Of a stretch of DNA of 36,163 nucleotides, positions 6,979 to 36,163 are shown piece after piece. The notes under the pieces were generated by a model, which worked only from the letters and a program-made list of their open reading frames with translations, had not been told where the DNA came from and made no database searches. A program made the translations under genes and the position numbers. How positions within the stretch are numbered: position 1 is the first letter of the stretch; the number at the start of each line of letters is the position of its first letter. The stretch covers positions 1-36,163 of the forward strand of contig JAFGPO010000129.1 in the NCBI GenBank assembly GCA_016936155.1, read 5' to 3'. The DNA comes from Caldifarciminota bacterium. GTDB lineage: Bacteria; Hydrothermota; Tepidihabitantia; SM23-42.

Positions 6979-8250
6979 ATGTCCGTGAACATCCTTTTCT
7001 ACAGCATCCTTATGCTCATTTTTCTTGTGTGCAGTGCATTTTTCTCGGGCATGGAAGCGGCTTTGTTCTCCCTCTCGCGTTTCCGAGTCAAGGCATTGAT
7101 CTTTGAAGAACGACGCGGCGCCCGCGCACTTGAACGGGTGAAGAAAGAGCCAGGGAAGACGCTTGCCGCGATCCTTCTGGCGAATCTCTTGGTGAATATC
7201 GGAGCAACGTCGGTCGGTGCGATCATACTATTGCAGATCATCGCTCGACATAACATCAATACGATCTTTGCTTTTATCCTGCAGTTCATCGTCATGACGT
7301 CACTCCTCCTGCTGATTGGAGAGATCACCCCCAAGACCATCGCGATCTTCGATGCCGAGAAATATTCTCTGCGGTTTGCCGGCATCATTGCGTTCATAAG
7401 CAGGATCTTCAGTCCATTTTCTGGTGTGCTCGAACGACTGACGAGACGCATGATTAAAGAGCAGTCCATTAAGGAAAATGCCCTGGTTTCGGACAAAGAG
7501 ATAAAATTAATGCTCCGTGAGGCGATGGAGTACAGAGTATTGGATCAAGGGGAAGAACGGTTCGGCTATCAAATACTCAAGTTCAGTAAAGTACGGGTCA
7601 ATGAGATCATGACCCCCAGGCAGAAAGTCGTCGGCATCCTGAAGACGGCTTCGATCGAGCGCGTAAAGCGTCTTATCAAGGCCAAGAGACATTCACGGAT
7701 CTGTGTTTTCGATGAAGAGGAAAACGTGGTGGGAGTTCTGTACGCGAAAGATGTGTTCATGCACGAATCGGCAAAGGATACCCCTGTTGATCTATCCGAC
7801 ATAATGAGGGAACCGTATATCACTCCTGAAACAAAATCCGCCGAGAACCTTCTTGGTGAATTCAGAAAAAAAGGTATACATATCGCGATCGTTGTCGATG
7901 AATATGGTAATTTTGTCGGTATCGTAACCCTTGAAGATATCATCGAGTCCCTTTACGGAGAGATCATCGATGAATATGATGAACATGGGGAACTTTCCGA
8001 TATTCCCTACCAGCAGTTGGCTCCGGACACCTACCTTTTCGAAGGTGACATAAATGTCGGTGAAGTGGCACGGATCCTTGAAATAGAACCTTTCGCAGAG
8101 GAAGGTGAGCGTCTTTCCGGATATATTATGGAACAATTCACAAGGATTCCGCTCGAGGATGAACGTATAGTAAAAGACCACTTCGAGATGCGGGTTGAGG
8201 AAGTGAAAGGACGCCTTATCACGAAAGTCCGCGTAAAAAGGATTGTATGA
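6979..8250 (+). CDS. CNNM/HlyC-CorC family transporter-like protein with CBS pair
   Basis: 423 residues. Seen: an N-terminal DUF21/CNNM membrane domain (about 1-180, with CSAFFSGMEAALFSL and GEITPKTIA), a CBS pair (about 205-330: VNEIMTPRQKVVGI..., VVDEYGNFVGIVTLEDIIESLYGEIIDE), and a C-terminal CorC_HlyC domain (about 345-420). The family is linked to Mg2+/Co2+ efflux; 'hemolysin' is only a historical name. It starts 4 bp after ybeY stops and overlaps the next gene by 4 bp, so translation is coupled. Confidence 0.92.
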   Translation: MSVNILFYSILMLIFLVCSAFFSGMEAALFSLSRFRVKALIFEERRGARALERVKKEPGKTLAAILLANLLVNIGATSVGAIILLQIIARHNINTIFAFILQFIVMTSLLLLIGEITPKTIAIFDAEKYSLRFAGIIAFISRIFSPFSGVLERLTRRMIKEQSIKENALVSDKEIKLMLREAMEYRVLDQGEERFGYQILKFSKVRVNEIMTPRQKVVGILKTASIERVKRLIKAKRHSRICVFDEEENVVGVLYAKDVFMHESAKDTPVDLSDIMREPYITPETKSAENLLGEFRKKGIHIAIVVDEYGNFVGIVTLEDIIESLYGEIIDEYDEHGELSDIPYQQLAPDTYLFEGDINVGEVARILEIEPFAEEGERLSGYIMEQFTRIPLEDERIVKDHFEMRVEEVKGRLITKVRVKRIV

Positions 8251-15073: not shown

Positions 15074-16576
15074 TTATGGGATGAAGGATGTTAATTCGTT
15101 GTTATCGATCAGGGTCTTGAGGTTCTCTATATGTTCAGTCAAGACGCTGTCTTTTTCTAAAAATGGAACGATCTTCCTGATCCGGCTATGTATTTTTTGC
15201 AAACGGGGAGAGGTTTTTAACGGTTTCAGCAATTCGATCGCCTGGCAGGCGCACAGCAACTCGATCGCGAGGACGTATTTCACATTATCGAGCACTTCAA
15301 TTGCCTTAAGACCGGCGTTCATGGACATGCTGACATGATCCTCTTGATTCGCGGATGTCGGAATGGAATCGACCGATGCAGGATGGCTCAAAATCTTGTT
15401 CTGCGAAACGAGAGCCGCTGCCGTCACCTGAGCCAGCATAAAACCGGAATTCAATCCCGGGTCTTTTGCCAGAAAAGGATTTAAACGACTAACACTCCCG
15501 TCCAGCAGTCTGAATATCCTTCGTTCTGATATGCCCGCAAGTTCTGATAACCCGATCGCCATAGTATCGAGGGCGAACGCGATCGGTTCCCCATGAAAAT
15601 TACCGTTGCTGATGATCCGGTCCTCTTTACACACTATGATCGGATTGTCTGTGACGGCATTAATTTCTATCGTAATGGTCTTGTGTGCCGCCTCGAGCAG
15701 ATCATATACAGCGCCGTGCACCTGGGGCATGCAGCGGAGTGAATAGGTATCCTGCACTTTAGAACAATCCCGGTGCGACTTCAGGATCGAACTGCCCCGC
15801 AACATGGTTCGTAAGCGACGCGCTGATTGTTCAGCCCCTGGATGCCGGCGGAGTTTAAAGATCAAAGGATCAAATGAGCGATCCGTCCCTTTGAGCGCTT
15901 CGAGTGAAAGCGCTCCGCATATATCAGCAATGGAACACAGGTTCATCGCTTCGCTATATACAAGACTGCAGATGCCGGTGGAGAATTGAGTGCCGTTGAT
16001 CAGGGCAAGCCCTTCCTTGGCTTTTAGTTTAATTGGTTTTATCTTAAAGCGTGCCAACGCCTGCTTTGCTTGATTGATATGGCCATCAACGAATACATTT
16101 CCTTTACCGAGTACCACGATGCCGATCGCTGCCATGGGGGCGAGATCCCCCGAAGCCCCGACCGATCCTTTTTGAGGGACGAGCGGAACGATATTCCGGT
16201 TCAGAATTTGCGTCAGCGTCTTCACAAGATCAATGGAAACACCGGAATATCCCTGGATGAGCGTGTTGATACGCAATAATAGCGCGGCGCGTACGAATTC
16301 CGGCGCAAAGAACGGCCCGATCCCCGCATTGTGGCTTAACAGTATATTCTCCTGAAGTTGTGCGAGATCGTGGGTGTTGATATGGACATGAGCGAGTGCC
16401 CCAAAGCCGGTATTAAAACCGTAGATCGATTGTCTGTCCGAAAGGTGTTTGGCGAGATAGCGCTCGCATGCTCGTACGCGGGAAAGAGCGGAACGCGCAA
16501 GGCGCACCGCCTCGTGCTGACAGGCGATACGCCATACCTGTTCGATGGTCAGCGATGAACCGTTGAGGGTCACCAT
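15074..16576 (-). CDS. hutH: Histidine ammonia-lyase
   Basis: 500 residues, normal length. Deaminates L-histidine to urocanate. Seen: YGFNTGFG near 52-59, the Ala141-Ser142-Gly143 triad in GSVGASGDLAPM that forms the MIO electrophile, the NGTQ and FHGEPIAFALD blocks, and SANQEDHVSM, which favours histidine over phenylalanine/tyrosine lyase. No hutU, hutI or hutG is nearby. It is the last gene of a valS-led cluster and overlaps the stop of the preceding gene by 7 bp. Its physiological role without an adjacent Hut pathway is unclear. Confidence 0.94.
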   Translation of the reverse strand: MVTLNGSSLTIEQVWRIACQHEAVRLARSALSRVRACERYLAKHLSDRQSIYGFNTGFGALAHVHINTHDLAQLQENILLSHNAGIGPFFAPEFVRAALLLRINTLIQGYSGVSIDLVKTLTQILNRNIVPLVPQKGSVGASGDLAPMAAIGIVVLGKGNVFVDGHINQAKQALARFKIKPIKLKAKEGLALINGTQFSTGICSLVYSEAMNLCSIADICGALSLEALKGTDRSFDPLIFKLRRHPGAEQSARRLRTMLRGSSILKSHRDCSKVQDTYSLRCMPQVHGAVYDLLEAAHKTITIEINAVTDNPIIVCKEDRIISNGNFHGEPIAFALDTMAIGLSELAGISERRIFRLLDGSVSRLNPFLAKDPGLNSGFMLAQVTAAALVSQNKILSHPASVDSIPTSANQEDHVSMSMNAGLKAIEVLDNVKYVLAIELLCACQAIELLKPLKTSPRLQKIHSRIRKIVPFLEKDSVLTEHIENLKTLIDNNELTSFIP

Positions 16577-30315: not shown

Positions 30316-30861
30316 ATGACGATTCCAAAAAGATTGTTTCTTACAAAGGGTGTCGGGAAACACAAAGAGAAACTGGCAAGTTTTGAGGCCGCTTTGCGCA
30401 ATGCCGGGATCGCACCATTTAACCTGGTCCGGGTGTCCAGCATCCTGCCTCCCCAGGCAAAAATCCTTTCCCGCGTAAAAGGGCTGCAGTACCTTTCCCC
30501 GGGAGAACTCGTGTATACCGTCATGGCGCGCAATTCGACCAATGAACCCCACCGGCTGATCGCCGCCGCGATCGGTGTCGCGATACCAAAAGACAGGTCC
30601 CAGTACGGATACCTTTCAGAATACAGCTCGTTCGGAGAGACTGAAAGCAAAGTGGGTGACAAAACTGAAGATCTCGCCGCGCAGATGCTTGCGACGACAC
30701 TGGGGGTGCCTTTTGATCCTGACGTCAGCTATGACGAACGCAAGGAGCTCTGGAAGATCTCGACCAAGATCGTAAGAACAACCGCAACGACACAGACCGC
30801 AATCGGCGATAAATACGGGTTATGGACCACGGTCGTCGCCGCCGCAGTCTTCGTGCCATAA
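30316..30861 (+). CDS. pdaD: Pyruvoyl-dependent arginine decarboxylase
   Basis: 181 residues, normal length. Converts arginine to agmatine, the first step to polyamines. Seen: NLVRVSSILPP, with Ser41-Ser42 as the self-cleavage site that turns Ser42 into the pyruvoyl group; the GELVYTVMA block; the SSFGETE segment; and a C-terminal TTVVAAAVFVP beta strand. It starts 18 nt after tRNA-Ala with AAAGAGG as ribosome binding site and no separate promoter, so it depends on tRNA transcription. speB-like genes are not in the window. Confidence 0.93.
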   Translation: MTIPKRLFLTKGVGKHKEKLASFEAALRNAGIAPFNLVRVSSILPPQAKILSRVKGLQYLSPGELVYTVMARNSTNEPHRLIAAAIGVAIPKDRSQYGYLSEYSSFGETESKVGDKTEDLAAQMLATTLGVPFDPDVSYDERKELWKISTKIVRTTATTQTAIGDKYGLWTTVVAAAVFVP

Positions 30862-30887: not shown

Positions 30888-31970
30888 ATGATGCTGCTTA
30901 TGATCGTTCACTTGACCCTTCCCGGGGTCATGAACCAGGGTGATCGTGTCCTCTGCCATGATGCTCGTTCATGTGCGCTGGGCAATGCAATGCTCGTGCT
31001 CGAGCACAGTCCTAATCCATCGGCAATGGGTCTTCTGGAGGATATGAGCGTATCGATCTCCGGGGCAATCATATCCGCCAATGAAAAACGAGGTCTCCGT
31101 GTCTACGATTCGTACGGCAATAATATCGGCATCTCGACGATTACGAACACAACCTTCACCAATGTATTACCCTGCGCATGCACGTTCGTTTTCCCCCTTC
31201 AGTTCATTCGCACCGGATTCCAATTCGCCCCGGTGCGGGATTACACGTACTCCTTTCATCGCGAGTACCGGGATGATTTCTATCAAGTAACCAAGGTCGT
31301 AGACCAGGAATACTCCGGGCGCACATACGCTATTTCGCCCATGATCGCGGTTACTCATTCCTGGCTGAACATCGGTGTTGCACAGCGGTTCATGTACGGA
31401 AGGCGTGAATTCCGGGAAATGATCATATTCCCGGATGCGCCGGACAGCGCGGTGACTGATGAGCATGATCTGAACGGGATGAATACCCGGTGCGGTGTGC
31501 TGATAGCGCCGGACATGCATTTCCGCGTATCGTACATGTATGCGTTCGCCTATGTCCTCGAATGCGACGATCCACTCCAGCACGACAGTTTCCCGGCCCA
31601 GCACAACCTTGGATTCATGTATCAGCCTCCAGGCCGTATCCCAACCAGATTCTTCGGAGAAGTAGCCTGTGAGACATATGACGATCCAGTGTTCGTTTAC
31701 AAAATCGGAGTAGAACATACGCTCCAGACCTCATATGCTCTCCGTTATGGGTTCTGCCTCTATCCGGATCATGTCCAGCCGGCAGTGTGGACGACCGTGC
31801 TGACCGTCGGATGCGGGATTCACCAACCGCATTTTAGCGCTGACATGGGGTACGCATATGGCAAAAGAGACTATACCAGTGCAAATTACAATGGCCTTGG
31901 GGAGACGGAAAACCTGGTGTTTGACGAATCGTTAAACACATTCCTGCTTTCATTCACTGTCCACTTGTAA
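30888..31970 (+). CDS. Outer-membrane beta-barrel-like protein of the PorV/FadL/UPF0164 type
   Basis: 360 residues. Seen: a short hydrophobic N-terminus, then DARSCALGNAMLVLEHSPNPSA in the place where PorV/UPF0164 proteins have SARxxALGGAxxALxDDPxAxxxNPA. Alternating aromatic beta strands follow through to a C-terminal strand ending in LLSFTVHL, typical of a barrel. There are many cysteines for an outer-membrane protein. The start is uncertain: ATG 30888, 30891 and 30900 are all close together and no Shine-Dalgarno is evident. First gene of a tightly packed four-gene envelope cluster, 26 bp after pdaD. Confidence 0.65.
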   Translation: MMLLMIVHLTLPGVMNQGDRVLCHDARSCALGNAMLVLEHSPNPSAMGLLEDMSVSISGAIISANEKRGLRVYDSYGNNIGISTITNTTFTNVLPCACTFVFPLQFIRTGFQFAPVRDYTYSFHREYRDDFYQVTKVVDQEYSGRTYAISPMIAVTHSWLNIGVAQRFMYGRREFREMIIFPDAPDSAVTDEHDLNGMNTRCGVLIAPDMHFRVSYMYAFAYVLECDDPLQHDSFPAQHNLGFMYQPPGRIPTRFFGEVACETYDDPVFVYKIGVEHTLQTSYALRYGFCLYPDHVQPAVWTTVLTVGCGIHQPHFSADMGYAYGKRDYTSANYNGLGETENLVFDESLNTFLLSFTVHL

Positions 31971-31973
31971 CCC

Positions 31974-33482
31974 TTGCTGCTGCTTCTTACAATAATCCTC
32001 ACGTGCGCATCCTCTGCGTACGACCACATTTACGTTTGCTATACGAATGATATCGAGGGAGGATTGTCACCGAGCCAGGCGTGGTGGATGAATCCATATT
32101 TCCCGCCCGTGATCGGCAACGCAGCCGCCGCCGCAACGTTCATCAAAGCGAAGAAACAGGAAGCGGACAGCCTCGGCTACGCATTTTTGCTCTTTGACAG
32201 CGGCGATATGTTCATGGGTTCTCCGATCGGAGAGTTTTCAAAGGGTACCGCAGTAGCGGATTTCATGAATTACTGCGGTTACGATGTTATCGCACCGGGA
32301 AATCACGATTATGATATGGGGGTGGAGGTGTTCAAGAATTTCGTCGCTGCCACGAACGCGGTGTTCCTTGGCAGCAATATAATCTACGAAGATACACGCG
32401 CCCCCGTCGATTACCTGGAACCGTATGTTATCCTGGAAAAGAACGATCTGAGGATCGGGATATTCAGCCTTTTGACCGAGTACATGGCAGGCATGACGAC
32501 ACCGGAGAAATTCGCTAATCACGACGTGCTTCCGGAACAGGAAACCGCCCAGCGCATGGTCGATACGCTCCTGGCAAAGGGTGCGGATGTGATCTTTGCC
32601 CTTACCGGCATCGGGCTCCGTCATGACAAGCGGATCGCGAGTGCGGTGCCTGGTATCGATGTGATCTTCGGGAGCCACAGTGCGAGCGCCCTCGAAATTC
32701 CGTATGAAGATTCGATTCACCACACGATCATCTGTCAATCCTACAGCCACCTCACCTGCGTGGGATTCCTGGATCTTCATATAGACACCCTTTTAAAAAG
32801 GATCGCGGGATACAAAGGCGAACTCGTCGACCTGCTCAGCGACGAGATCGAGAGCGATACGGCAATGGAACATATCATTGCACGATGGGAACAGGAGACC
32901 CAGAAAGGATTTGACGAGGTGATCGGGTACAGCAACGAAGAAATGACACGTAACGGCTTCGAGGAATCAACTATCGGCAATCTGATCACCGATGCGATGC
33001 GGGAGTATTTTGATGTTGATATTGCGGTCCATAATTCGGGCGGCATCAGGGCCAACCTGCCGCAAGGCGACATCACGTACCGCGCCTGCTATAATATCGA
33101 TGCGTTATCGAACACCGCGGTTATAATGACCATGACCGGCGCCCAGGTGCGCGACATGCTCGAGGTCGGGTTCAACGGGCATCATGCAATATTCCAGGTG
33201 TCCGGCATTGCGCTCGAATGGGATCCGCGGCAGGACACCGGTCAACGAATCCTCACAATAACCGATCATAATGGCATCCCGCTCGATCCGGTGAGAGACT
33301 ACAGGGTAGTGACGAATTCCTACCTCGCGGCAGGCGGGGGAGAGTATATCGTGTTTAAAGACGCGCGCGATATCCGGGAAACCTTTACCTATCTGCGGAA
33401 TATACTTGCTGATCACATCAAGAAGCACTCGCCGATTGGAAGTCGCATTCAGGGGCGGATCATCAACGTCGCCGATCGATAG
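31974..33482 (+). CDS. 5'-nucleotidase/UshA-family protein with degenerate metal site
   Basis: 502 residues. Seen: signal peptide MLLLLTIILTCASSA; N-terminal metallophosphoesterase domain with TNDIEGG (24-30), FDSGD (74-78), GNHDYD (109-114), LTGIG (210-214) and GSHSA (233-237); and a C-terminal 5'-nucleotidase domain with NSGGIRANLPQGDITY near 350-365 and the TMTGAQVRDMLE block. Against the UshA pattern, the first-motif His is Glu28, the His of LSHLG is Gly212, and the last Gln/His is Ala237. The start is TTG 31974, three bases after the preceding stop; no ATG fits. Catalysis is therefore in doubt. Confidence 0.85.
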   Translation: MLLLLTIILTCASSAYDHIYVCYTNDIEGGLSPSQAWWMNPYFPPVIGNAAAAATFIKAKKQEADSLGYAFLLFDSGDMFMGSPIGEFSKGTAVADFMNYCGYDVIAPGNHDYDMGVEVFKNFVAATNAVFLGSNIIYEDTRAPVDYLEPYVILEKNDLRIGIFSLLTEYMAGMTTPEKFANHDVLPEQETAQRMVDTLLAKGADVIFALTGIGLRHDKRIASAVPGIDVIFGSHSASALEIPYEDSIHHTIICQSYSHLTCVGFLDLHIDTLLKRIAGYKGELVDLLSDEIESDTAMEHIIARWEQETQKGFDEVIGYSNEEMTRNGFEESTIGNLITDAMREYFDVDIAVHNSGGIRANLPQGDITYRACYNIDALSNTAVIMTMTGAQVRDMLEVGFNGHHAIFQVSGIALEWDPRQDTGQRILTITDHNGIPLDPVRDYRVVTNSYLAAGGGEYIVFKDARDIRETFTYLRNILADHIKKHSPIGSRIQGRIINVADR

Positions 33483-33508
33483 CGCGCCGGGCGTGCCAAA
33501 TAAACAGT

Positions 33509-34735
33509 ATGCCGGATCCCCGTAACGAACACAGGATAAGGCACATCGCGGCCCTTATTCTCATCAATCTGTGCCTTCACGCGCAGAGCATACGGATCGC
33601 GACCTATAATGTGCTCAATTTTCCTGAAGCGATGGGCATGCAGCGCCTCGATGACCTTCGCACGGTGATCGATTATATGAACGCCGATATCCTCGTGGTC
33701 CAGGAAATGCAATCGCCGGCCGGTGTCACCCTGTTCCTTGATTCGATCATGAATTTCTACCAGGACGACTATGTCGCGGCTCCATTTCACGATGGTCCGG
33801 ATACTGATAATGCCCTGTTCTATCGGCGCGATAAAGCCGAATTGATCCGAAGCATATACCTGACCACTGCGAATCGGGATATAATGGAGTATTCGCTCTT
33901 GCTCTTGGACGCGCATGAAGAACTCATGGTCTATTCGGTCCATTTCAAGGCATCACAGGGCCCGGAGAACGAGGCGATACGTTTGCAAGAGGCGACCGTG
34001 CTGCGCAATCATCTGGATTCGCTCGATACTCGCGCTTCGTTTCTGGTCGCCGGCGACTTCAATATATACACGAGCAGTGAACCGGCCTATATCATGATGA
34101 CAGACAGCATAGCAAACGGGCAGTTGTTCGATCCGCTCCGGGCCCCGGGCGGGTGGCATGAGAACCATGATTTCGCCTACCTGCACACGCAATCGTCCCG
34201 CGTCAACCAACTCCCGGACAATGGCAGCAGCGGAGGACTCGATGATCGATTCGATATGATCCTCTGCTCATCCAGTTTGCTCGACAGTGCCGGGTTATTC
34301 ATTCCGGCCCAGACGTACACCGTATTCGGCAATGATGGAAATCATTTCAATAAAGCGGTCAATCACGGATACAATCAATCGGTTCCCGATCACGTTGCCG
34401 ACGGGCTGTACTTTGCGTCGGATCACCTTCCAATCAGCCTTGACATCGTGTACGGTCCTGCCAGTCCGCAGCAAAATGAAATTGTGAAGATCTATCCGAA
34501 TCCGATGCGGAATACCGCACACCTTCAGTTACCATGGATCGAAGATTTTCAGAGAGCCGAGATCGCGATCACCAATATCCTCGGCCAGCGCATATTCGCC
34601 TGTACCCACTACAGCCCGCAATCGATCGTTCTCCAGCGCGACGGCATGCCAATCGGCGTCTATTTCGTGCACGTGCGGATCCATACCATGTTCCGTGTCC
34701 TTTCCTACCAGACCAAACTGGCGGTGATCGAATGA
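33509..34735 (+). CDS. Secreted endonuclease/exonuclease/phosphatase family protein with T9SS C-terminal sorting domain
   Basis: 408 residues. Seen: signal sequence (HIAALILINLCLHAQ), EEP/DNase I-type domain (about 27-315) with ATYNVLNFP, VVQEMQS, YSVHFKAS, GDFNIYT, FDMILCS and SDHLPIS, so the acid/His/Asn catalytic set is intact. Residues 323-408 are a Por-type C-terminal domain (KIYPNPMRN, ITNILGQRIF, GMPIGVYFVHV), the export and anchoring signal of type IX secretion. Probably an outer-membrane-exported nuclease or phosphodiesterase. The stop overlaps the next ATG by 4 bp. Confidence 0.88.
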   Translation: MPDPRNEHRIRHIAALILINLCLHAQSIRIATYNVLNFPEAMGMQRLDDLRTVIDYMNADILVVQEMQSPAGVTLFLDSIMNFYQDDYVAAPFHDGPDTDNALFYRRDKAELIRSIYLTTANRDIMEYSLLLLDAHEELMVYSVHFKASQGPENEAIRLQEATVLRNHLDSLDTRASFLVAGDFNIYTSSEPAYIMMTDSIANGQLFDPLRAPGGWHENHDFAYLHTQSSRVNQLPDNGSSGGLDDRFDMILCSSSLLDSAGLFIPAQTYTVFGNDGNHFNKAVNHGYNQSVPDHVADGLYFASDHLPISLDIVYGPASPQQNEIVKIYPNPMRNTAHLQLPWIEDFQRAEIAITNILGQRIFACTHYSPQSIVLQRDGMPIGVYFVHVRIHTMFRVLSYQTKLAVIE

Positions 34736-35544
34736 ACGCACTTCTTCTTTTTTATATTGCGCTGAGTTCAGGATACTCCCTGAAAGTGACACCGGGATCG
34801 ATGTGCATCGGCCTGGGCAATGTAGGCACGGTGGTCGATGAAGGGTTTGCTGCTTTCCACAATCCAGCGTTGATTGACCGAAACGCGTGTGCTTTTTCCA
34901 TTGCGCGATATTTCTACGGGACGAATTTCCTGGCATGCAGCGGAACATACCGCAATACAATCATCGGTCTTCGGTACATGAATTACGGTTCGATCCAGGG
35001 TTATGACGAAGCAGGCTATCTGACGAACGCGTTCACACCGTATAGTATGGACCTGGTCCTGGCCCGCAAAGTCGGTCCCCTTGCTATCCTGGCCCGAGGG
35101 TTCATCGAAGAAATCGATACATACCACGCCTGGGGCATATGCGGCGGGCTGTCCTTGTTTTATCGCATACAAAGAGTCGCGCTTGGAATGAAAGTTGAGA
35201 ATATAGGTAAAGTTATGAATAAAACGATTGATATCCCGGTGAGTTTTTCTGTAGGCTCATGTATTACATTACCTTCGGATTTTAGTTTTTATTCTGAAGT
35301 TAAAGGTCTTCCCATGGAATACAGCGCTGGGCTTGCGTATCAGTATGATGCCCTTACAGTGCTCCTTGGATCGCGTTTTATCGATCCTGAAACGCATAGT
35401 GGTCTGGATATCAGCGCATCATCCCAAGATATCCATATTTCTGCCGGGATCAGGGTGGCTATCGAGGATTATACGATCGGGTATGGTTTTGTTTACAGCG
35501 AGTACTCAAAAGCCCATCATTTTACAATATCGCTCTGCCCGTAA
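34732..35544 (+). CDS. PorV-like outer-membrane protein
   Basis: 270 residues from ATG 34732, which overlaps the nuclease stop as ATGA; a longer frame upstream only shadows the nuclease gene. Seen: short signal (MNALLLFYIALSSGYS), LKVTPGSMCIGLGNVGTVVDEGFAA with FHNPALI, the PorV/PorQ-type start, and beta strands to the end (VYSEYSKAHHFTISL). PorV is the type IX secretion shuttle protein that carries cargo with C-terminal domains. Position next to such a cargo suggests a dedicated partner (inference). The 3' third has a visibly lower G+C than the 5' part. The last 28 bp overlap the convergent YhfC gene. Confidence 0.72.
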   Translation: MNALLLFYIALSSGYSLKVTPGSMCIGLGNVGTVVDEGFAAFHNPALIDRNACAFSIARYFYGTNFLACSGTYRNTIIGLRYMNYGSIQGYDEAGYLTNAFTPYSMDLVLARKVGPLAILARGFIEEIDTYHAWGICGGLSLFYRIQRVALGMKVENIGKVMNKTIDIPVSFSVGSCITLPSDFSFYSEVKGLPMEYSAGLAYQYDALTVLLGSRFIDPETHSGLDISASSQDIHISAGIRVAIEDYTIGYGFVYSEYSKAHHFTISLCP

Positions 35545-36163
35545 CTCCCTTCTTTGTGCTCTTGCCAGTGGCGTGAACACCATTGGATGATCGGAATACT
35601 TGCAAGCGCAAATGGGAGAAGGGCCAGTTCGATCCACCACATGCTGATGCGCTCAATAAGCCCGGCAAGATGCGCATATCCTGCGATCGCATCGATCCCG
35701 GTCATAATTAAAAATCCTGCCCAAAAATAGATGTATTTCCGGCGCATGACAGCATAGAGCGTGAGCACGCGGGAACTTGTGTGGCACAGGATCGCGATCG
35801 ATCGTTCCACGGGCGCGAGCATGAAGAATAGAGGGTTGAGGCTCATGGTGCGCACTAATGAACCGATGACTTCCGCACCTCCCTGGGCCTGGACCATCAG
35901 AAATACCATGTTGCCGATTTGCGAAAAAGCAATGAGGAGCGCTTCGATGATTCCAGCACCGAGGCCTATCCCGATGGCCCGGGATGCATGAGCATACATT
36001 TTTTTTATGAATACGGCAAAAAACAAGGTTATCCCGATCTCGAATATACCGGTTAACGAACCGATATAAAAACTCCCGATTATGCGGTACCCGGTCTGGC
36101 CAAAGAGACTGGTGATCCATCCTAATACCGCCGGGTTCGCAACCGCCGCAAACACGAATTTCA
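35517..36163 (-). CDS. YhfC-family intramembrane protein (putative CAAX-like/YhfC protease), partial
   Basis: At least 215 codons, open to the right edge. Five to six membrane segments, with GLGAGIIEALLIAFSQ (the conserved G-x-G-x-x-E-A of the YhfC family), SLNPLFFMLAPVERSIAILCHTSSRVL with Glu, His and Ser in the positions used by that family, and a terminal Trp-rich membrane segment. YhfC proteins are related to CAAX-type intramembrane proteases; function unproven. The N-terminus is outside the window. It ends inside the convergent PorV-like gene (28-bp overlap). Confidence 0.78.
   Translation of the reverse strand, partial: KFVFAAVANPAVLGWITSLFGQTGYRIIGSFYIGSLTGIFEIGITLFFAVFIKKMYAHASRAIGIGLGAGIIEALLIAFSQIGNMVFLMVQAQGGAEVIGSLVRTMSLNPLFFMLAPVERSIAILCHTSSRVLTLYAVMRRKYIYFWAGFLIMTGIDAIAGYAHLAGLIERISMWWIELALLPFALASIPIIQWCSRHWQEHKEGSYGQSDIVK

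Follow-up and report, generated by a model that had tools for sequence, protein, structure and literature searches.

Does a single cargo of the type IX secretion system (T9SS) have an outer-membrane barrel of its own? The question is raised by four adjacent genes, OMP1, NUC5, EEP and PORV, in a stretch of 36,163 nucleotides (the window) from a contig of Caldifarciminota bacterium. All four genes are on the forward strand, and open reading frame calls gave gaps of 3, 26 and -4 bp, in agreement with a preliminary description of this DNA, which had also noted that a nuclease with a T9SS tail overlaps a PorV-like gene. That observation holds as well, on the tail score and on the profile and fold matches of PORV given below. 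The reading argued here, to which a probability of roughly 0.5 can be assigned, is that the EEP nuclease is displayed at the cell surface and that PORV serves as its private outer-membrane mount. The features of the locus are:

30316-30861, forward strand: pyruvoyl-dependent arginine decarboxylase (PF01862, 2e-60), left boundary of the variable insert
30888-31970, forward strand: OMP1, 360 aa, FadL/BamG-like outer-membrane barrel, partner of NUC5
31974-33482, forward strand: NUC5, 502 aa with a TTG start, secreted UshA-type protein with an altered dinuclear metal site, without T9SS tail
33509-34735, forward strand: EEP, 408 aa, endonuclease/exonuclease/phosphatase-family enzyme with a T9SS type A C-terminal domain (CTD) at about residues 326-408
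34732-34735, forward strand: ATGA overlap of the EEP stop and the PORV start
34732-35544, forward strand: PORV, 270 aa, 14-strand barrel of the PorV/PorQ family and putative private mount of EEP
35517-36155, reverse strand: YhfC-type membrane protein (PF10086, 6.2e-10), right boundary of the insert

The mechanical open reading frame of PORV begins at 34534; its start was set at 34732, the ATGA overlap, which is conserved among relatives. The -4 bp overlap was identical in about half of the relatives, with spacings of -1 to +221 bp in the remainder, and it is likely to couple the translation of EEP and PORV. The YhfC-type gene overlaps the 3' end of PORV tail to tail, a position shared by several relatives, and the arginine decarboxylase was retained in all examined relatives whose contig extends that far, except L042, where it was not detected. 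The relatives, retrieved via NUC5, were MAGs, each of which belongs to candidate division WOR-3 or lies close to it, one of them labelled Stahlbacteria and one TA06. The window itself comes from an uncultured WOR-3 bacterium. Elsewhere in the window are an NCS2-type permease and, at 15077-16576 on the reverse strand, a clear and unremarkable aromatic amino acid lyase (PF00221, 631 bits).

In a profile search EEP matched PF03372 (6.8e-9), and its C-terminus matched the type A tail model TIGR04183 at 24.9 bits, above the 23-bit cut-off. The same model was matched by nine of the ten EEP orthologs at E ≤ 0.001. The match to CHU_C was below cut-off (E=0.17 only), so the tail does not class as a type B CTD. 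The catalytic residues N34, E66, H145, D183, N185, D249, D305 and H306 were invariant wherever they were covered in 19 aligned rows. EEP also matched NF033681 (ExeM/NucH extracellular nuclease) at 28.1 bits (E=9.2e-7), short of the cut-off of 300, and PDB sequence searches with EEP gave no matches. Judged from its CTD and from the translocon of its genome, EEP would be classed as a type A T9SS cargo.

The T9SS is general in this genome and is not bound to the four-gene cluster, because the genome also encodes the SprA translocon (TIGR04189 on contig C24, 362 bits in frame, cut-off 200), at least 90 type A tails above cut-off (approximately 96 type A tail matches), PorU-like sequence pieces on contigs C49 and C46, and a PorV candidate and a PorQ candidate side by side on contig C93. 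There were 25 peptidase C25 matches in addition. WOR-3 is missing from the T9SS phyla named in PMC11285876, and the literature searched yielded no paper that joins WOR-3 with "type IX secretion"; this lineage can now be credited with SprA and some 100 type A tails.

PORV matched the PorQ profile NF033711 at 49.9 bits (2.3e-13) and the PorV/PorQ profile NF033709 at 39.9 bits, far below the respective cut-offs of 220 and 90, and both profiles matched all ten PORV orthologs at E ≤ 0.001. There was no match of PORV to the PorV equivalog NF033710. NF052325, "putative type IX sorting system protein PorV2", which is a curated PorV paralogue family in NCBIfam, matched none of the ten PORV orthologs and was matched, below its cut-off, by other PorV-family barrels of these genomes; where "PorV2" occurred in the literature searched, it seems to be PorV followed by a reference number. 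As measured by profile score, PORV is nearer to PorQ than to PorV. It was ruled out as the PorQ of the genome, since a better PorQ match adjoins PorV on contig C93 (12690-13541; 113 bits to NF033711, also below the 220-bit cut-off). In a tree of 51 sequences PORV formed its own clade (100/100), apart from the PorV and PorQ sequences encoded in the same genomes, with a deeper placement that is unsure owing to long branches. PDB sequence searches with PORV and with the PorV of the genome gave no matches.

An AlphaFold2 model of PORV from 10 sequences was a 14-strand barrel (pLDDT 70.5, pTM 0.69; below 50 for the first 39 residues). Its best fold matches in the PDB were FadL, at the top, and then the Flavobacterium johnsoniae PorV in the translocon; the chain bound to the RemA CTD (8gl6_F) was matched with E=1.1e-7 and TMq 0.64. 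PORV is therefore predicted to be a 14-strand FadL-type barrel with a solved PorV among its nearest folds. The modest model and the profile scores far below the PorQ and PorV/PorQ cut-offs count against the proposal that PORV is a mount.

The order OMP1, NUC5, EEP, PORV was kept in 12 relatives, and because of this the four-gene arrangement is, on comparison of gene order, not a matter of chance. The preliminary description had proposed this search and had further taken the four genes to form one unit. A single indivisible unit was ruled out: OMP1 with NUC5 and EEP with PORV are inherited as separable pairs. EEP and PORV were retained without OMP1 and NUC5 in five other genomes, and at one locus (L043 in G002, 8074-8235) a 54-residue NUC5 remnant just upstream of EEP is the scar of OMP1 and NUC5 loss. 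In three other relatives all four genes are gone, the YhfC-type gene being the next after the decarboxylase, and at L058 there is a PORV remnant only. Of the genomes compared, 19 had both EEP and PORV and 6 lacked both, never with one of the two alone, and in 2 more the contig ended too early to tell; OMP1 and NUC5 were both present in 15, both absent from 11 and never found singly. The naive Fisher p for co-occurrence of EEP and PORV was 5.6e-6, a value that ignores relatedness, and their absences include at least four that are apparently independent. Genomes without the EEP and PORV pair kept SprA (G017 was outside that search).

It could be argued against the mount that the adjacency of EEP and PORV reflects co-regulation alone, with EEP using the general PorV and PORV serving an unrelated role. 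The tail of EEP is an ordinary-looking type A CTD, which the general PorV should take too, a good candidate for that PorV being present in the genome. However, neither gene was ever found without the other despite the apparently independent absences, and adjacency with the cargo first recurs in approximately ten barrel lineages, as described below. Co-regulation alone is accordingly regarded as quite unlikely.

The other two genes, OMP1 and NUC5, are a second, separable pair of a barrel and a secreted protein. The dinuclear metal ligands of UshA are D, H, D, N, H, H and H. In alignment to UshA relatives, E28, G212 and A/S237 of NUC5 replace three of the four metal-binding His residues in 13 of 13 orthologs, and D26, D78, N110, H111, D114 and H235 are retained. 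The 5'-nucleotidase C-terminal domain was clear (PF02872, 135 bits, 3.1e-39), the best solved relative was 3ivd (8.5e-45), and F407 and Y458, which stack on the base by family alignment, were invariant, as were R359 and N380; identity to orthologs was 63-68%, that is, NUC5 is well conserved. The match to Metallophos was 19.2, below the cut-off of 21.5. In other words, the aromatic base sandwich of the 5_nucleotid_C domain is present but the dinuclear-ligand set of UshA is not, and "nucleotidase relative", the name given in the preliminary description, fits the C-terminal domain and not the metal site. Phosphatase activity cannot be assumed because those His residues are lost throughout: NUC5 may still be an enzyme, with a metal site of another kind, or it may be a protein that binds nucleotides. 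It is probably periplasmic, since a signal peptide is present by inspection and a T9SS tail is absent. A genome scan placed the NUC5 family at 10 WOR-3 loci, each with OMP1 upstream.

The AlphaFold2 model of OMP1 (pLDDT 80.1, pTM 0.78) matched FadL (2r88, E=8e-14) and BamG (9n2d_B, TMq 0.73) in Foldseek searches, with PorV (8gl6_F) at rank 32, and at the profile level there was a weak PorV-family match only. The BamG profile NF053685 was matched by 7 of 11 OMP1 orthologs (best E=6.9e-11, below the 250-bit cut-off); OMP1 of the window did not match it, and none of the relatives exceeded the cut-off. OMP1 was ruled out as a PorV, its fold being nearer to FadL and BamG, and as the BamG of the genome, being below cut-off and missing from several genomes. 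In the profile and structure checks that had been suggested for both barrels and the tail, the EEP tail passed its cut-off, the PORV model matched FadL and a solved PorV, with PORV profile matches below cut-off, and OMP1 was nearer in fold to FadL and BamG than to PorV.

The preliminary description had interpreted the locus as nucleotide salvage, in which EEP would cut nucleic acid, OMP1 import the products, NUC5 dephosphorylate them and the NCS2 permease take up the base. The intact active site of EEP, the nucleoside-binding residues kept in NUC5 and the nearby permease are consistent with such a pathway, but the replaced metal ligands of NUC5 and the five genomes that keep EEP and PORV without OMP1 and NUC5 argue against it, and salvage is considered improbable.

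In 13 related sequences the partial Mantel correlation between EEP CTD and PORV distances, after removal of species distance taken from three neighbouring genes, was 0.664 (p=0.0002). The whole catalytic domain of EEP gave 0.268, four slices of it matched in size to the CTD gave -0.07 to 0.37, and a control neighbouring gene, dtd, gave 0.31. The contrast between the CTD and the catalytic domain is suggestive rather than proof, because values shifted when single sequences were left out (0.51 to 0.78 for the CTD, 0.13 to 0.66 for the catalytic domain). Nor is co-variation with PORV exclusive to the CTD, since in the subset of eight sequences with OMP1 and NUC5 also present, the NUC5-PORV value (0.772) was close to the CTD-PORV value (0.784). 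The equivalent test of OMP1 against NUC5 gave 0.12, in 8 sequences only. Fast evolution of both the EEP tail and PORV could yield a correlation without contact.

These values also bear on the idea that PORV takes up the products of the nuclease as a FadL-type channel, in which case its pairing with EEP would be metabolic and not secretory. FadL is the top fold match, the neighbour is a nuclease and an NCS2-type permease is in the window. Nevertheless, every PORV ortholog matched the PorQ and PorV/PorQ profiles, PORV co-varied more with the EEP tail than with the EEP catalytic domain, and PorV-family barrels adjoin unrelated cargos (an NHL propeller, FG-GAP, an M28 peptidase and a lamin-tail protein), so that an uptake channel is very unlikely.

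The layout of EEP and PORV is recurrent. In three genomes (that of the window, G018 and G005, which are mutually related, so that counts are not independent), a CTD-bearing gene was found directly upstream of 17 of the 31 PorV-family genes, always with the cargo first and with gaps of -58 to +32 bp. CTDs were detected with a model built from 20 tails of the genome of the window, which gave no matches on reversed or shuffled proteins. The count excludes OMP1-type genes, two other matches of 21-24 bits and one 107-aa fragment, and includes an M28 peptidase (L102) with a weak model score of 4.9 bits and a typical ending. The expectation by chance was approximately 4%, the share of CTD genes, and binomial P values per genome were 2e-6 to 2e-5, with a gene number of approximately 2,270 that is an estimate. 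By orthologous group there were approximately ten paired lineages, with unrelated cargos: FG-GAP proteins, NHL propellers, a lamin-tail protein and the M28 peptidase. Pairing is a recurrent layout, because the paired barrels formed no single clade in the tree. The earlier suggestion of a PorV-like protein dedicated to one cargo therefore survives, and extends to approximately ten pairs in WOR-3.

Some of the paired barrels carry OmpA or TPR extensions. Long PorV-family barrels lie directly downstream of large FG-GAP CTD proteins at L079, L080 and L099; the L079 barrel has a C-terminal OmpA domain, the other two share its clade, and barrels of this type resemble PorP and PorE within one protein. 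At L081 (4975-10679) a protein of 1250 aa combines bacterial Ig-like and FG-GAP repeats with a CTD resembling that seen in the T9SS M6-like inactivated metalloprotease family, and the gene of a PorV-family protein with TPR repeats comes 2 bp after it. A second weak ExeM/NucH cargo, with a lamin-tail domain, was found in G018 (L094, 2373-5749), overlapped by 4 bp by its own PorV-family gene.

Under the preferred reading, EEP and PORV would be made from one message, cargo first. EEP, which has a signal peptide for passage of the inner membrane, would then leave through the SprA translocon by its type A CTD, and PORV would accept this CTD as the general PorV of the genome does for other cargos. 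Where that PorV is recycled, PORV would retain the CTD, so that EEP, with a predicted nuclease activity, would be fixed at the surface in a 1:1 complex, comparable with PorQ holding PorZ and PorV holding PorU. A broader proposal, somewhat short of even odds, is that WOR-3 has a third route for type A cargos, in which private PorV/PorQ-family barrels hold cargos encoded upstream by an uncleaved CTD and some OmpA- or TPR-fused barrels tie the complex to the cell wall, EEP and PORV being one of approximately ten lineages.

Alternatively, PORV may be a recycled private shuttle that collects EEP from SprA and passes it to a PorU-type sortase, which cleaves the CTD and attaches the cargo. A shuttle was also the role named in the preliminary description. 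The fold of PORV matches a PorV bound to a cargo CTD, PorU-like pieces are present on C49 and C46, and for type B cargos, private shuttles of the PorP/SprF kind are encoded immediately after the cargo gene (PMC12618676). However, a recycled carrier for a single cargo seems wasteful beside a general PorV, PORV scores nearer to PorQ, the fixed holder of PorZ without known shuttling, and OmpA and TPR extensions on other paired barrels suit anchoring. A shuttle is therefore a possible but doubtful role.

The joint encoding and inheritance of EEP and PORV, and the approximately ten pairs of cargo and barrel in the same genomes, suggest that type IX cargos are individually provided with private mounts at the surface rather than with one shared general carrier. 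Type A cargos are reported to depend always on one general PorV (PMC12618676), and the pairs in WOR-3 bear on what marks a type A cargo for a private barrel or for the general PorV.

Several known systems resemble parts of this locus. NUC5 has the two-domain layout and nucleoside-binding C-terminal domain of the 5'-nucleotidases UshA and CD73, but differs from them throughout in three of the four metal-binding His residues. OMP1 resembles BamG, which acts with BamH in the Bacteroidota BAM complex (PMC12611786, PMC12578637), in its FadL fold, its weak BamG matches and its one secreted partner, but it is below the BamG cut-off and several genomes have lost it, although BamG itself seems to be essential, and NUC5, unlike BamH, is an UshA-type protein.

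Type B cargos bind PorP/SprF-like barrels that are often encoded alongside, and in pairs such as SprB-SprF and PG1035-PorP the cargo gene is often followed by its own 14-strand FadL-family barrel, which handles or anchors the cargo (PMC9143113, PMC12618676). The layout of EEP and PORV is similar, but the CTD of EEP is type A (TIGR04183) and PORV matches PorV/PorQ profiles, not PorP/SprF.

A close parallel is in Porphyromonas gingivalis, where PorV holds PorU and PorQ holds PorZ at the surface and the CTDs are kept (PMC5562754, PMC10202324). A review suggests that a CTD may escape cleavage when its cognate PorV-like barrel shields it (PMC10202324). The reason for which PorZ retains this domain is an open question, and a lineage with a general PorV and approximately ten pairs makes the CTD-protection idea testable. 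As proposed for PORV, which scores nearest to PorQ, a FadL-family barrel there holds one CTD protein by its uncleaved CTD. The partners in P. gingivalis are parts of the T9SS machine, whereas EEP is a cargo and an ordinary enzyme. PORV, for its part, is distinct from both the PorV and the PorQ of its genome, and its loss need not entail loss of the T9SS.
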